From contig JABDCB010000002.1 in the NCBI GenBank assembly GCA_013288325.1, positions 53,453 through 117,452 on the forward strand: DNA of 64,000 nucleotides. The letters are read 5' to 3'. Numbering within the stretch: the stretch's first letter is position 1; each line of letters opens with the position of its first letter. The translations under genes and the position numbers were made by a program. Positions 8,572 through 18,518 of this stretch are shown here, piece after piece. The notes under the pieces are model-generated. The model saw nothing but the letters and a program-made list of their open reading frames with translations. It was not told the DNA's origin and did no database searches. Source of the stretch: Bacteroidota bacterium (lineage in GTDB: Bacteria; Bacteroidota; Bacteroidia; Palsa-965).

Positions 8572-8745
8572 AATTAGGGATGAATTCTGGATAAATGTTG
8601 AATAACAGGATGTTTTCGACCAGTGACTTGATGAGTCCTCCGGATTGATGTACAGCCGAGTATGATTTCTTTAACACCTTTTAACAGCGCAAACAAAGCA
8701 GTCCCATTGTTTTCACGCTATGGCCCTTTACCTTTGGTTCAGGAT

Positions 8746-9102
8746 ATGAAACAAATAGCACACTTGCTCCTTCTCTGGATTTTCCTGCTTAATACGGCCC
8801 CGGCTGTAGCAAGCATGTTGCCGGTTGTACAAAAGAATGAGCATTGTATTACGTCCTGTTGTGAAAAGAAACATACCTGCCATACAGGTAAAAATCAAAA
8901 GAAGGATAACCGTGAAAATTGTTGCGATAACGGAATATGTACTTCGGGTAACTGTTGTGTCTGTTGTTTTTATTTCAACGAGCATGAATTGAGCATGAGG
9001 TTTGCAGAGCAGAAAAACAAAACAGCCCCTTTCGTTCATAAAAATGAAAATGCCCTTTCTTCATATCTATCCAATACCTGGCAACCTCCCAAGACAGTTT
9101 AA
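8746..9102 (+). CDS. Cys/His-rich small exported protein (HYC_CC_PP-like)
   Basis: Preferred start MKQIAHLLLLWIFLLNTAPAVA at 8746. Cys-rich body (CITSCCEKKHTCHTGK...NCCDNGICTSGNCCVCC) and C-terminal WQPPK. Confidence 0.6.
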   Translation: MKQIAHLLLLWIFLLNTAPAVASMLPVVQKNEHCITSCCEKKHTCHTGKNQKKDNRENCCDNGICTSGNCCVCCFYFNEHELSMRFAEQKNKTAPFVHKNENALSSYLSNTWQPPKTV

Positions 9103-9161: not shown

Positions 9162-9332
9162 ATGAAAAAGACAATTGTAGGCATGGCAACCATGCTACTT
9201 ATTGCCGGGACGTCCGTATATGCCGGTAATGACAAGACAGATTCAAATACCAAGTCGAACAGCAAATCCTGCACATGCACGAAAGATTGCTGCAAAAGCT
9301 GTGGTTCTAAAGAGTGCACTTGCTGTAAGTAA
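9162..9332 (+). CDS. small exported Cys-rich protein (56 aa), not in ORF track
   Basis: Read directly: MKKTIVGMATMLLIAGTSVYAGNDKTDSNTKSNSKSCTCTKDCCKSCGSKECTCCK*. Signal peptide plus 10 Cys in the last 20 residues; followed by a rho-independent terminator. Confidence 0.7.
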   Translation: MKKTIVGMATMLLIAGTSVYAGNDKTDSNTKSNSKSCTCTKDCCKSCGSKECTCCK

Positions 9333-9528: not shown

Positions 9529-9554
9529 TACATTTGTCTACCAATTTAGTAGAC
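9529..9554 (+). promoter_or_regulatory. Bacteroidota -7-like element (TACATTTG) abutting near-perfect 19-bp palindrome GTCTACCAATTTAGTAGAC
   Basis: TAnnTTTG match at 9529-9536. GTCTAC(9536-9541)/GTAGAC(9549-9554), with 8 of 9 symmetric pairs complementary; probable operator. Confidence 0.5.
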
Positions 9555-9631
9555 TATTAGGTTTGCTTTCATTGGAACCTCCAAAACCGCTTCGTGGTAA
9601 TGGATAAGGAGGCTTGGATTTCAAGTATTAA

Positions 9632-9742
9632 ATGAATGAAATGAAAAAGTTTTATAAAATATCAGTATTCGAGACCTTGATGTTCCCAAGCATTCAACCT
9701 CCTGAATTGACGACAAGACCCTTTTCTTGTTGTTGTTGTTAA
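9632..9742 (+). CDS. putative leader peptide with C-terminal tetra-cysteine
   Basis: Read directly: MNEMKKFYKISVFETLMFPSIQPPELTTRPFSCCCC* (36 aa); four consecutive TGT codons then TAA. Lies in the 5' leader of the PstS-like/SusCD operon. Confidence 0.5.
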   Translation: MNEMKKFYKISVFETLMFPSIQPPELTTRPFSCCCC

Positions 9743-9920
9743 TATCTCTCACTTCCCATTAAGTAGTTAAGGATTACACTTTCCTGCTATTCAATTGCAT
9801 CCGAAATAACCTTTGGTTCAAGGTGGCGCTTGCGCTGACTGCCAACTTCGTTTGCTCTTGAATGAGCTGCATGGGCTTCCTCTGTAAACAAATCAAAAAA
9901 TTAATTTAAAAACAATAACC

Positions 9921-10877
9921 ATGAACCTATCAAAAACAATTACAGCGATTGCCTTCCTGACAGCGCTGTCTCCTGCTGTCTTTTCGCAGAACACGGAAAA
10001 AGCAAAATCGGATTATGTGTATTTAACAGGTACCCGATTTACGTATCCACTTATTGAAAAATGGATAGCGGAATACAAAAAGGAAAACCCATCAGCGCGA
10101 ATAGGGCTCCTGAAAAAGGGCGAAGTGACTGACAGTGCGAATGTGTTTATCGTCTCTCACAAGCTCGACGACGCGAAACAGAAGGAAACCGATGCATACG
10201 TGCAGGTTGCAGAATACGCTCTGTTACCTATTGCCAACGAAGCAAATCCCATTGTTAAGAAAACGGCAAAGACTGGAATTGATGGGGCCAAGTTCAAAGA
10301 GTTGTTCATAAAAGGAAAAGATGACGAGTTGTTGACACAGGAAGAGAAGACCCAAAGACAGGCAAAAAATCCGTCGCTTGTCTACACCCGCGCAACGGCA
10401 TCTTGCGCTTCCATCTCCTTTGCCGATCATTTTGGATATGTATGGGAAGACATCAATGGGAAAGGTGTAAGCGGTGATGACAAAAATCTGTTGCAAGCGG
10501 TACAGAAAGACACGAATGGTCTTTCTTACAATAATTTGGGATATATCTATGACCTGAAGACGCGCTTGCCGGTAAAGGGAATTGCAATAATTCCGATAGA
10601 TCTGAATCAAAATGGGAAGTTGGATCCTCAAGAACAGATTTATGGGAACCTGGATCAGGTGATCGGATATCTGGAGAACAATCCGGATGAAAAAGGAATA
10701 CCTACAGCCTATGTAAATCTGATTTTCAATAAGAGCCAACCCAATGCAGCCTTGCAATCATTCCTGTCGTGGGTATTGACCAAAGGACAAAAATATAACC
10801 ATGAAGTGGGTTTTTTCAATGCTCCTCCCAAAGCATTGGCCAAGCAACTAAAGTCGCTCCCGATCATACCAAACTGA
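9921..10877 (+). CDS. PstS-like periplasmic substrate-binding domain protein
   Basis: Signal peptide; 'YVYLTGTRFTYPLIEKWIAEYKKENP ... KGVSGDDKNLLQAVQKDTNGLSYNNLGYIYDL', PBP-like fold. No ABC permease or ATPase follows. Confidence 0.7.
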   Translation: MNLSKTITAIAFLTALSPAVFSQNTEKAKSDYVYLTGTRFTYPLIEKWIAEYKKENPSARIGLLKKGEVTDSANVFIVSHKLDDAKQKETDAYVQVAEYALLPIANEANPIVKKTAKTGIDGAKFKELFIKGKDDELLTQEEKTQRQAKNPSLVYTRATASCASISFADHFGYVWEDINGKGVSGDDKNLLQAVQKDTNGLSYNNLGYIYDLKTRLPVKGIAIIPIDLNQNGKLDPQEQIYGNLDQVIGYLENNPDEKGIPTAYVNLIFNKSQPNAALQSFLSWVLTKGQKYNHEVGFFNAPPKALAKQLKSLPIIPN

Positions 10878-10900: not shown

Positions 10901-13900
10901 ATGCCATACCCCATATTGAAATTTCAAAAAAAGATTATTTCACTCTTATTGTTCACGGGCGGTTCTTTATTCTCCTACGGACAAACTCCGCTTATCTTGA
11001 AAGGAAGGGTAATGGCGGAGCTGTCACGGGAGCCTTTACCCGGTGTTATTGTGCACATAAATGGAACCAAGGTGGGTACCACTACGGACACTGCAGGGAG
11101 GTTTGAATTGCAAACCACGCAACCTATACCATTTACACTGTTTATTGACTTCATCGGTTTTCAGACCAAAGAGATTGATGTGTACGAAGCTTCCGAGCCC
11201 CTTGAAATCATGCTTCAAACAACTAATTCCCTGAAACAAGTGGTAGTAGTGGGCTATGGAGAGCAAAGCAGAAAAGACATCACAGGCTCTATCTCCTCTG
11301 TACCAGCGGAATTGAAATCCCAACCCGTTTCTTCCGTCGAAAGGCTTTTAGAGGGATCAACTGCTGGAGTTGCGGTTACGCAAACGTCCGGGCAGCCAGG
11401 CGCAGGGGTGAGTGTGCAAATCAGAGGCAACAATTCCATCACTGCCGGCAGCGATCCTTTGTATGTGATAGACGGGTTTCCAATCAATAATGATTATGGA
11501 GTAAATGATGCCGGAGTGATAGGCGGGCCTAAGATAGATCCGCTTTCTACCATACCTACTTCCGACATAGAATCTATCGATGTATTGAAAGATGCTTCTG
11601 CCACCGCCATTTACGGTAGCCGGGGCGCAAACGGAGTAGTTATCATCACCACCAAGAAGGGTAGCAGAGATCAATCCTTGGTTACTTATGATGAATACAC
11701 CGGGGTTTCCGAAGTGACAAAGGAAATTCCGTTGTTGAATGCAGGGGAGTGGTGGCAGTTGCGTAAAGATGCTGCAATCAATTCTGGTACGTCAGGGGCA
11801 TTGGAAGGGAAAAATGCATCCATCCTGGCGACTGCAAAAAATCAGGGTTATGCTATCGATACTTCGGGTCAGGGTACGGACTGGCAAAAAGCAGCCTTCC
11901 GTAGCGCAATCACTCAGAATCATAATTTATCGATTCTCTCCGGTACGGATAAAACCAGGTTGGCAATCGCATTTAACTATTTGAATCAGGATGGTGTGCT
12001 AATAAATACGGGATTTGTGCGATATGCGGGTAGAGTAAATGTGGAACACAAATATAGCCGTAAATTTAAAGTATCTGCCAATATCAATGGGAGTATATCC
12101 AGTGCGAATGTGGCTCCGGCAAATGTGGTCAGCAATTTATTACTGACTCCTCCCGGTCTGCCAATTTATAAAAGCGATGGTACTTTCGTTCTTCAAAGTC
12201 CGTTCGAATCGGCTAATCCGGCAGTAGTAAACCCGATTAATACGCTTACGAATGAGATTAACCAAAGCAAGACAAACCGCCTTCTGGGAAACACGGCTCT
12301 GGAATATGCCATCCTCGATCATTTGACTGCAAAAGTTCTGTTTGGGGCAGATATTCTCGATAATAAGCAAAATCAATACCTGCCTCTCACCACAGCCGAA
12401 GGTCTTGCTTTAGGGGGGTATGGGGCTGTAGGGTCTCAATTTACAATCAATTGGCTGAATGAGAATACACTTTCCTATTCCAGAATTCTGAATGGTGTCC
12501 ATTCACTGAATGTATTGGCCGGATTCAGTGCCCAGCATTCGGCTACAGAGGGTGAAATAACATCGGCAGCGGGTTTCCCGAATGACTTACTTACTTATAA
12601 TAATCTGGGAGTAGGAGTGACTCCTCGTCCGGTCACCACCTCATCCGACGAATGGGCATTGGCATCCTGGTTGGGAAGGATCAATTATGGGTTTAAAGAA
12701 AAGTATCTCGTTACCCTGACGCTGCGCGCTGATGGATCATCCAAGTTCGGACCTGACAACAAATGGGGATACTTTCCATCCACTGGTCTGGCCTGGAATG
12801 CGAATCAGGAACATTTCCTCCGGGATGTAAAATGGCTTTCTAACCTAAAGGTAAGAGCCAGCGTAGGGAATACAGGTAACCAATCGATCCCATCTTATTC
12901 TTCGCTGGCGCAATTAGCATCTTACCGTTATAACTTTTCGAATACCACCGTTTCCGGGTATGCGCCTCTAACCGTGTCAAACCCTAATTTGGGATGGGAG
13001 AAAACAACTCAGACGGATTTTGGAACGGATCTGGGTCTTTTTAAAAACAGGATAAACCTGACAGCCGACCTGTACTACAAACTAACCACCAATCTACTGT
13101 TGAGTGAACCGGTGTCCGGCACCTCTGGTTTATCATACTATGATCCGAATGCAAACCCTGGTCAGCTTTCAACAGTGTATCAAAACATCGGAGCCGTAGA
13201 AAACAAAGGTTATGAAGCCGGTGTTGTCTCACAAAATCTCATAGGTCGTTTAAAGTGGAATACCATTTTTATCCTTTCTCAGAATTTCAGCAAAATTCTG
13301 TCGTTGGGTAACGGTATCAATCAGACTGTTCCCGATGCCAATGAGCCCTCCGTTCTGCAAGTTGGGGCTCCTTTAGGCTCCTTTCTGGTATATGAAACCA
13401 ATGGCCTGATTAAAGCCGGAGGTCCTGCACTGACACCACAGCAAGATAAAAATCCGGGAGGTCAGAATTATGTGGATGTGGACGGTGACGGAAAAATCAC
13501 ATCCAACGATCGGGTCCTGATTAAGAATAATCCTCCCGTTGTTTTAGGACTCACTAACACCGTCCAATTTGGAGGATTTGATCTGACTATATTTTTTCAG
13601 GCTTCTATTGGTGGCAAACTTTACAATGCAAACAGAGCCGCACTTGAATTGGGTACAGGCTATACAAATGCTTCGGCCGATTTCCTTAAAGCCTGGACCG
13701 GGACCAATGCCGATGTAAAAGCGCCTTATCAGGATCCGGCCATTGTGGTATCCGATCGCTTTATCGAAGACGCTTCCTATTTGCGTTTGAAAAATATTAC
13801 TATTGGGTATACATTGCCTTCTAGGCTTACGGAAAAAGTGAAGATAAAAAAATTGCGTTTGTATGTGTCAGCTCAAAACGCATTTACATGGACCCGATAT

Positions 13901-14017
13901 ACAGGTTATGACCCCGAAGTCAGTCTCAACGGACAGAGCCTGATAGAGAAGGGATATGATCAGGGAGTATATCCCAACAGCCGAACGATCCTTGGAGGCA
14001 TCACCGTTACCTTTTAA
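10901..14017 (+). CDS. SusC/RagA family TonB-linked outer membrane protein
   Basis: VVVVGYGEQSRKDITGSISSV, RGNNSITAGSDPLYVIDGFP, DIESIDVLKDASATAIYGSRGANGVVIITTKKG. Confidence 0.97.
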   Translation: MPYPILKFQKKIISLLLFTGGSLFSYGQTPLILKGRVMAELSREPLPGVIVHINGTKVGTTTDTAGRFELQTTQPIPFTLFIDFIGFQTKEIDVYEASEPLEIMLQTTNSLKQVVVVGYGEQSRKDITGSISSVPAELKSQPVSSVERLLEGSTAGVAVTQTSGQPGAGVSVQIRGNNSITAGSDPLYVIDGFPINNDYGVNDAGVIGGPKIDPLSTIPTSDIESIDVLKDASATAIYGSRGANGVVIITTKKGSRDQSLVTYDEYTGVSEVTKEIPLLNAGEWWQLRKDAAINSGTSGALEGKNASILATAKNQGYAIDTSGQGTDWQKAAFRSAITQNHNLSILSGTDKTRLAIAFNYLNQDGVLINTGFVRYAGRVNVEHKYSRKFKVSANINGSISSANVAPANVVSNLLLTPPGLPIYKSDGTFVLQSPFESANPAVVNPINTLTNEINQSKTNRLLGNTALEYAILDHLTAKVLFGADILDNKQNQYLPLTTAEGLALGGYGAVGSQFTINWLNENTLSYSRILNGVHSLNVLAGFSAQHSATEGEITSAAGFPNDLLTYNNLGVGVTPRPVTTSSDEWALASWLGRINYGFKEKYLVTLTLRADGSSKFGPDNKWGYFPSTGLAWNANQEHFLRDVKWLSNLKVRASVGNTGNQSIPSYSSLAQLASYRYNFSNTTVSGYAPLTVSNPNLGWEKTTQTDFGTDLGLFKNRINLTADLYYKLTTNLLLSEPVSGTSGLSYYDPNANPGQLSTVYQNIGAVENKGYEAGVVSQNLIGRLKWNTIFILSQNFSKILSLGNGINQTVPDANEPSVLQVGAPLGSFLVYETNGLIKAGGPALTPQQDKNPGGQNYVDVDGDGKITSNDRVLIKNNPPVVLGLTNTVQFGGFDLTIFFQASIGGKLYNANRAALELGTGYTNASADFLKAWTGTNADVKAPYQDPAIVVSDRFIEDASYLRLKNITIGYTLPSRLTEKVKIKKLRLYVSAQNAFTWTRYTGYDPEVSLNGQSLIEKGYDQGVYPNSRTILGGITVTF

Positions 14018-14041: not shown

Positions 14042-15610
14042 ATGAAAAAATTAATACCCCTATTGTCCTTTGTATTAATCATATCTACCTCTTCCTGCAA
14101 AAAATTTCTAGAAGAGAAACCGAAGAGTATTATTACGGAAGATAATTTTTATAAAACAGAAAGCGATGCCATTTACGGCATCAATGCAATCTATTCCATG
14201 CTTAATGCAGGAGGCTCTTCAGAGCAAACACCTTATAATACCTTGTTTAGTACAGGGATGGATATGGCTACTGACGATGTGGACCCGGGGCCAGGTGCTG
14301 TCAATGGGGATGTGCGGTCGCTCTCCGTGCTGGCGCAAACCTCTTCCAACCGCACTATATTTCAGCTCTGGCAACAACATTACGCAGCGATTGTAAAGGC
14401 GAATGTGGCGTTAACCAAAATTCCGGGCATCAGTTTTGATGCTGTTCTTAAAGCAAGGCTACTAGGAGAAGCCAGATTTTTAAGAGCACTATACTATTTC
14501 AATCTGGTGAGGTTATGGGGAGATGTTCCATTGGTTCTGGAATATAATCCCACAGGAATCACAGCATCCGACTATGCAAATGCAAGAACCTCCTCCACAT
14601 TGGTGTATGCACAGATTGAAAAGGATTTGGGAGAAGCCGTAACGGTGCTCCCTGCGAGCTACTCGAGTCCTGATGTAGGCAGGGCAACTAAAGGAGCCGC
14701 ATTGGCTCTGCTGGCCAAAGTTTATCTGACAGAAGCTTCTCTTCCTCTTAATATTACCAGACAGTATGCACTGGCTGTGAGTACAGCTTTGCAAGCGATG
14801 TCACCGTCGGAAGGAGGCACAGGAACATTCGGCTATGCGCTTCAGACAAACTATGCCAATGTATTTCTGCCCGCGTATAAAAACAATTCCGAGCATATCT
14901 TTTCTGCTCAGTTTAAGTCAAACTCGCAGTCACAGGGTAACAACCAATGTGCAAGAGCCATTTTCAATGGTGTGCCTGGATTGAGCGGGTCTTATTCCGA
15001 ACAGGTGCGCTTTTACAAGAATGGAGCAGATAACTATTTCAGTATTTATAAACTATACCATGCAGGCGATAAGAGGAAGCAGGCCACTTTTGTGACCAAG
15101 TTTACAAGTCCATCTACGGGTCAGGCTATCGCTTTAAAAATTACAAACCCTGCAGTGCCCAATGATTCTACTCCCTTTTTCAATAAAGCATGGGATCCAT
15201 CATCTATTTCCCTCACGAGTGAGTCGGCAGCCAATGTATCTATCCTCCGGTATGCCGAGCTTTTACTCATCCATGCAGAAGCAGAGAATGAGTTAAGCGG
15301 GCCTACCGGTACAGCCTATAATTCCATTAATAAAGTAAGGAACAGAGCGGGACTGCCAGCTCTTACTCCCGGTTTGTCAAAAGATCAGTTTCGCGATTCG
15401 TTGTATCTTGATCGCAGGCTGGAACTGGTATGGGAATACCAAAGGTGGTTTGATCTGATCCGCCAGAAAGATGCATCAGGCCAATCCATTTTTGTTGCAA
15501 GCCTTCATACGGTTGGGAAAACCAATGCAAAGGATTATCAGCGTCTGTATCCCATTCCGCTCAACGAATTGGCCGTTAATCCGAATATTAAGCAAAATCC
15601 GGGTTGGTAA
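14042..15610 (+). CDS. SusD/RagB family nutrient-binding lipoprotein
   Basis: Lipobox SSCKKFLEEKPKS; ARFLRALYYFNLVRLWGDVPLV; C-terminal RLYPIPLNELAVNPNIKQNPGW. Confidence 0.97.
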   Translation: MKKLIPLLSFVLIISTSSCKKFLEEKPKSIITEDNFYKTESDAIYGINAIYSMLNAGGSSEQTPYNTLFSTGMDMATDDVDPGPGAVNGDVRSLSVLAQTSSNRTIFQLWQQHYAAIVKANVALTKIPGISFDAVLKARLLGEARFLRALYYFNLVRLWGDVPLVLEYNPTGITASDYANARTSSTLVYAQIEKDLGEAVTVLPASYSSPDVGRATKGAALALLAKVYLTEASLPLNITRQYALAVSTALQAMSPSEGGTGTFGYALQTNYANVFLPAYKNNSEHIFSAQFKSNSQSQGNNQCARAIFNGVPGLSGSYSEQVRFYKNGADNYFSIYKLYHAGDKRKQATFVTKFTSPSTGQAIALKITNPAVPNDSTPFFNKAWDPSSISLTSESAANVSILRYAELLLIHAEAENELSGPTGTAYNSINKVRNRAGLPALTPGLSKDQFRDSLYLDRRLELVWEYQRWFDLIRQKDASGQSIFVASLHTVGKTNAKDYQRLYPIPLNELAVNPNIKQNPGW

Positions 15611-15831: not shown

Positions 15832-18114
<2,283 letters not shown>

Positions 18115-18158: not shown

Positions 18159-18518
18159 TCAATGTGAATTCATCTTTAGAAATTCCATGGCCTTATCCAG
18201 CGATACATCTCCGTGCGAGGTATTGTACAGACATTTGCGGTGATGAATCAGCAAAAGCTGGGGCGATTGATGCTGAATCTGATAACGTTCGGCAATAGCG
18301 TTGCTCAGGTTGCGATGCAGGAGCAGATCCAGATAATAAACATCCACGATCCCTTCATTCGTGTTTCCCATCTCCCGAACCAGGCTTTTCTTGGCCATGC
18401 CGCTTATATAACAGCTTGTGCTATGTTTGAAGATGACCTGTGGTTTAGTATCCGACAGCACATCTATTTCTTCCAGTTGATTTACTACTTTAAGTACGGT
18501 GAATTCCATAGTATACAT
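18159..18518 (-). CDS. monothiol bacilliredoxin BrxC/YtxJ-like
   Basis: 'VIFKHSTSCYISGMAKKSL...DVYYLDLLLHRNLSNAIAERYQIQHQSPQLLLI' matches the YtxJ/BrxC pattern. Confidence 0.75.
   Translation of the reverse strand: MYTMEFTVLKVVNQLEEIDVLSDTKPQVIFKHSTSCYISGMAKKSLVREMGNTNEGIVDVYYLDLLLHRNLSNAIAERYQIQHQSPQLLLIHHRKCLYNTSHGDVSLDKAMEFLKMNSH

Follow-up and report, generated by a model that had tools for sequence, protein, structure and literature searches.

Leader-peptide attenuators of the trp, his and ilv type carry control codons for the end product of their operon in a short open reading frame (ORF) of the 5' leader. An example from an amino-acid operon is described in PMC13236596, and two systems built on Cys codons come closest to the locus considered here. 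Mycobacterial polycysteine leaderless short ORFs (sORFs; Canestrari et al. 2020, doi 10.1111/mmi.14498) place contiguous Cys codons before cysteine or sulfur genes, and cysteine-responsive attenuation was proposed for them from the speed of ribosomes on Cys codons, according to PMC9031893, PMC9094748 and PMC13236596. In Rhodobacterales, the uORFC-8-2 motif has a short ORF with Cys codons in tandem upstream of cysS, and ribosome-mediated attenuation was proposed for it (PMC8632094). The literature searched, mostly papers available without subscription, held no description of poly-Cys or SusCD leaders in Bacteroidota, and a cysteine-codon leader appears to be undescribed in this phylum.

In the window (the whole 64,000-nt stretch of Bacteroidota DNA analyzed), a Bacteroidota-type -7 promoter element, TACATTTG (TAnnTTTG; 9529-9536, + strand), was joined by the palindrome GTCTACCAATTTAGTAGAC (9536-9554), for which 0.01 matches with up to three mismatches were expected from shuffles of the window and which would lie over the transcription start as the probable operator of a sulfur regulon. 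Some 95 nt behind the -7 box was the ATG of the 36-codon leader ORF MNEMKKFYKISVFETLMFPSIQPPELTTRPFSCCCC (9632-9742, + strand), which had counterparts in other families and whose four Cys codons, TGT TGT TGT TGT (9728-9739, + strand), stood directly against the stop codon TAA as the proposed stalling site. The RNA from this stop to the next gene (9743-9920, + strand) is the proposed attenuation region, and the three genes that would be controlled, all on the + strand, encoded a PstS-like periplasmic binding-fold protein (9921-10877; weak matches to PF12849 and TIGR00975, below cut-off), a SusC/RagA TonB-linked outer-membrane protein (10901-14017; TIGR04056, 840 bits) and a SusD/RagB lipoprotein (14042-15610; PF07980, PF14322). 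An earlier note on this DNA had listed the promoter-like element, the palindrome, the ORF ending in four TGT codons and TAA, and the start of the binding protein at 9921, and each was present at these positions. The leader from 9540 to 9742 folded unusually well compared to shuffles (z -3.09), in part because its Cys codons form a hairpin with the nucleotides immediately 5' of them. A search of the window leader against Rfam returned nothing above gathering score, only four sub-threshold matches that were all chance-like, and found neither a T-box nor a SAM-I riboswitch (RF00162), which likewise controls sulfur and methionine genes.

The window ORF has its contiguous Cys codons in common with the mycobacterial sORFs. 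However, the latter are leaderless, belong to a different phylum and have no sequence homology to the window ORF, and in Bacteroidota the Cys tail differs in standing at or next to the stop and in being partnered by a palindromic operator or a SAM-I riboswitch. The uORFC-8-2 motif includes a stem formed by its Cys codons and an intrinsic terminator that carries a U run (PMC8632094), neither of which was general in the Bacteroidota leaders; it precedes cysS, whereas the Bacteroidota leaders mostly stood before other genes. The window ORF was considered as a member of either system and filed under neither, because it is not leaderless, shows no sequence homology and has no uORFC-8-2 terminator. 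As in other leader-peptide attenuators, a conserved run of Cys codons lies in a 5' leader ORF, with genes of cysteine supply or use downstream in related leaders; unlike the trp, his and ilv type, the Bacteroidota leaders have no conserved terminator/antiterminator, and several are too short and unstructured for one.

No orthologous locus with the leader was found in 12 genomes of the window's own family (and order), where the sole other PstS-like relative had 32% identity and a different context. TGYx4-TAA occurred 12 times in these genomes; only the window copy formed an ORF that began with ATG and did not lie within a long one, and the other matches in this GTDB family were rejected as leaders and attributed to chance. 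Since the genome bin of the window was 60% complete, transfer or mis-binning of its contig is conceivable. The PstS-like protein had its best relative among named genomes in Dyadobacter bucti (35% identity), where MKAMNFNSSGKKTTTMVAKSKDLPHSKSCCCCC, ending in SKSCCCCC before the stop, sits between the PstS-like gene and the palindrome TTTGTCTATCAATTTAGTAG; genes for sulfatases (PF00884) lie downstream. The D. bucti palindrome TTTGTCTAYCAATTTAGTAG, followed by this Cys-tailed ORF, was the same as that of the window. Close orthologues of the PstS-like gene were present in 37 genomes of the D. bucti family (71-100% identity to the D. bucti protein), and 34 of the 37 were preceded by a short ORF in which two to five Cys codons stood at the stop or next to it, thus retaining the codons whose conservation in orthologous leaders the earlier note had set beforehand as its refutation test; a recognized Cys tail was absent in the other three. 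The nine residues before the tail had a mean pairwise identity of 14%, and the tail itself was kept while being spelled in 12 different TGT/TGC combinations. Low identity before the tail and synonymous spellings within it argue for selection on cysteine, not on nucleotides, and the Cys tail is, judging by these alignments, conserved as protein sequence. More distant relatives had leaders ending in MQMRCCCCTL with sulfatases downstream (locus L105) or in CLTDSCC with SusC and SusD downstream (L107), and two others (L104 and L106) had no Cys-tailed ORF. Across loci the leader peptides were 11 to 42 residues long.

A search that used the palindrome with its TTTG only, in 399 genomes of another family (f36, probably Chitinophagaceae), gave 26 matches versus 0 for the reversed control, and the TTTG directly 5' of the palindrome was kept in both D. 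bucti-family and f36 loci. Of the 25 usable f36 loci, nine had, within 330 nt, an ATG-initiated ORF of up to 65 codons whose tail was CC, and in six the tail was CCC, compared with per-locus rates of 1.9% and 0.1%, respectively, in dinucleotide shuffles (p about 5e-10 and 2e-13); one such ORF was found in the upstream region and none on the antisense strand. Behind these palindromes were mostly SusC-type TonB receptors, as well as cysteine desulfurase-type aminotransferases, a formylglycine-generating enzyme, redoxins and a PIG-L deacetylase. Similar palindrome sites preceded sulfatases in D. bucti, where single weak sites mean little because a one-mismatch search gave 27 matches versus 24 in the control. 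In a class-wide sample the palindrome was found in 6/395 genomes and is thus confined to some families. Taken with the shared palindrome, the sulfatases, formylglycine-generating enzyme, cysteine desulfurase and SusC/SusD genes suggest a role in sulfur acquisition, in line with the earlier suggestion that the uptake system perhaps serves a sulfur source.

Starting instead from the Cys codons, a census of TGYx5-TRA only, in 390 genomes of the class, yielded raw TGYx5 matches in 152 genomes, most of them inside genes in other frames. Among 130 loci read (30 chosen automatically, 20 chosen by hand, mostly for TGT-rich or TAA-ending tails, and 80 in list order), 23 ORFs ended in CCCCC, nine of which were not inside a long ORF and had a gene no more than 400 nt away; as eight of the nine came from the 20 hand-chosen loci, they give no rate. 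The genes behind them encoded CysH (L173, L189), CysS (L175, L205), MetX (L181) and MetY (L186) and, less clearly, a TonB-receptor-like protein with a carboxypeptidase regulatory domain (L176), an ATP-grasp protein (L179) and one (L188) that matched nothing in Pfam and resembled the product downstream in L110. No unrelated well-known gene followed any of these nine. By eye, L176 and L188 had palindrome-like sites, and in five loci (L173, L179, L181, L186 and L189) a SAM-I riboswitch (RF00162, above gathering score) lay directly upstream of the poly-Cys leader. A SAM-I riboswitch followed by a poly-Cys ORF would amount to tandem methionine/SAM and cysteine control.

A third search started from cysS, with the L175 sequence as query in 120 f36 genomes, and the best 30 loci by score were read, of which 29 were readable. 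A tiny Cys ORF (e.g., MFFLSHTCCCCCCC, MPIQLSIVCCCCC and MKNYITYQYNCCC) lay 52-110 nt before cysS in 11 of the 29, one of them (L270) being the query locus again, compared with 1.0% in shuffles (p about 4e-15) and 0 on the antisense strand. The other 18 had no Cys ORF and, as the tail was also missing in three of the 37 orthologues and in L104 and L106, the device is easily lost. In most cysS leaders with a tiny ORF, a TAnnTTYG box ended 4-8 nt before the ATG, so these ORFs are probably leaderless or nearly so, which the window ORF is not. Six cysS leaders (L282, L286, L291, L296, L298 and L299) had a second TAnnTTTG-like box between the leader stop and cysS, as if the gene had two promoters, of which only one would include the Cys leader.

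From these comparisons, the window ORF is in all likelihood a cysteine-responsive leader that controls the PstS-like/SusC/SusD operon. As the same device recurs before sulfur, cysteine and methionine genes in the sampled Bacteroidia, stalled ribosomes are very probably how the leader senses a shortage of cysteine; with Cys codons placed at the stop, before such genes and in otherwise dissimilar peptides, ribosome stalling when Cys-tRNA is short would be the best explanation. The earlier proposal that Cys-tRNA supply gates the uptake system thus gains support from the conservation of the Cys codons and their placement before cysH, cysS, metX and metY. A sulfur-linked regulator would probably act at the palindrome over the start site, and in the resulting transcript the short ORF would be translated first. 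With Cys-tRNA plentiful, the ribosome would read the four Cys codons and release at the stop, leaving C-rich, weakly structured RNA bare, and expression of the operon would end early; with Cys-tRNA scarce, it would stall beside the stop and shield this RNA, and the uptake operon would be made. We infer the stalling, the direction of the response and the last step. Beyond the window, it seems reasonably likely that Bacteroidota have a widespread cysteine-codon leader system without an intrinsic terminator, placed before cysS, cysH, metX/metY and SusCD/sulfatase operons in tandem with a sulfur-regulon operator or a SAM-I riboswitch; it would have arisen by convergence with the mycobacterial device, and its output would be Rho-type or translation-linked. 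Such a system would be a testable coupling of outer-membrane scavenging and of cysteine and methionine synthesis to charged Cys-tRNA in Bacteroidota that rely on SusC/SusD, and its ORFs of 11-42 codons are an example of genes that annotation misses. A short ORF with a poly-Cys end could serve as a signature to predict sulfur-responsive operons and the substrates of orphan SusCD systems.

For the output step we tentatively favor Rho-type attenuation, in which a stalled ribosome would shield the loading site, although we hold this with less than even confidence. The choice was made on composition, the post-stop RNA being rich in C and poor in structure: C exceeded G after the leader stop in 40 of 46 leaders, in 17/21 outside the D. 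bucti family (p 0.0016), in all 11 cysS leaders and in the window region 9743-9920 (41 versus 28, counted from the stop codon), and outside the D. bucti family this RNA was less structured than control upstream regions (p 0.025). Transcription attenuation through an intrinsic terminator and mutually exclusive stems such as the earlier note had drawn seems improbable. The window has a terminator-like hairpin, TGACGACAAGA/TCTTGTTGTTG (9708-9735, + strand), whose 3' arm is the Cys codons, paired with the sequence immediately 5' of them, and L110 and L107 each have one good terminator candidate after the stop. That hairpin was particular to the window and may be due to chance, however, and intrinsic terminators after the Cys tail numbered 8 against 7.6 expected in 46 leaders. 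The competing stems of the earlier note, CCTT/AAGG versus AAGGTGGC/GCCAACTT, can be drawn as letters but were no better than chance, the region 9743-9920 folding no better than its shuffles (z -1.38; 13/200 as good), and in several cysS, metX and other leaders the gene is preceded by just 42-60 nt of unstructured RNA. The mode of attenuation in leaders that have no terminator, and hardly any structure, is the question that this raises.

A translational output, with the Cys codons or nearby RNA pairing with RNA 3' of the stop and a stalled ribosome opening or closing the downstream start, is a possible though less likely reading. It matches the mycobacterial counterpart, whose described output is translation attenuation (PMC9031893, PMC13236596), and complementarity between Cys codons and post-stop RNA was mildly higher than in shuffles in cysS leaders (Fisher p 5.6e-4) and in D. 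bucti-family leaders, the latter value being inflated by related sequences. Yet the remaining 19 leaders, including that of the window, showed no such elevation, and no excess was found for pairing between the leader and the 40 nt immediately 5' of the gene, for pairing of the ORF or 5'UTR with the gene start, or, among leaders in general, for pairing of the Cys tract with the ORF body or 5'UTR. The peptide itself might instead act as a metal- or thiol-binding miniprotein that is merely co-expressed with the operon; short Cys clusters can bind metal, but the unconserved remainder of the peptide, its variable length and the position of Cys-tailed ORFs before cysS, cysH, metX and metY make this very unlikely. 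A chance ORF in a TTG/CTG-rich stretch would fit the abundance of raw TGYx5 matches in the census, but is contradicted by conservation and by three independent enrichments, and we give it next to no weight.

Related leaders contained additional RNA structures. At 36 of 37 D. bucti-family loci (L067-L103), a hairpin with the conserved loop AACCACC and a changing stem lay right behind the palindrome, 20-70 nt after it, with a mean of -8.4 versus -3.8 kcal/mol for shuffled flanks. In this family CCACC was invariant, as was a GGTGG within the ORF that lay at a distance of 38 nt to the conserved ATG in 34/34 leaders and mostly 34-40 nt from the first Cys codon of the tail. RNAalifold paired the two motifs, a pairing without covariation support because the pairs are invariant; as a suggestion only, a loop contact of this kind could re-form behind a stalled ribosome. 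The window does not share these elements. The leader of L117 had TCAACCACCGG and UCGGUGGUUGA together. A very long hairpin (-46 to -58 kcal/mol per 135 nt), its apical UCGGUGGUUG invariant and its stems dissimilar, was reached by two independent routes, the palindrome or the PstS-like gene, in 5' leaders of sulfur-linked genes (L060:1608; L104:1665; L105:6607-6616, - strand; L106:6841-6850, - strand; L107:1227; L117:1791; L139:1392-1401, - strand). Rfam gave no match for it at the five scanned loci, and it is a candidate new RNA motif.

The poly-Cys leaders of L110 and L188 lay close to genes for two proteins of about 270 aa that resemble each other and, by eye, look like phytanoyl-CoA-type dioxygenases; the scanned part of the L188 protein matched nothing in Pfam or NCBIfam, and both are possibly organosulfur oxygenases. 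In the window, two small Cys-rich ORFs lay just 5' of the leader on the + strand (8662-9102, 146 aa; 9162-9332, 56 aa), without a Pfam match and possibly metal-binding, the shorter of which looked secreted. On its other side, the operon was adjoined by genes for catalase-peroxidase KatG (15874-18114, + strand) and the monothiol bacilliredoxin BrxC (18159-18518, - strand), placing oxidative and thiol stress genes beside a putative sulfur-uptake locus.
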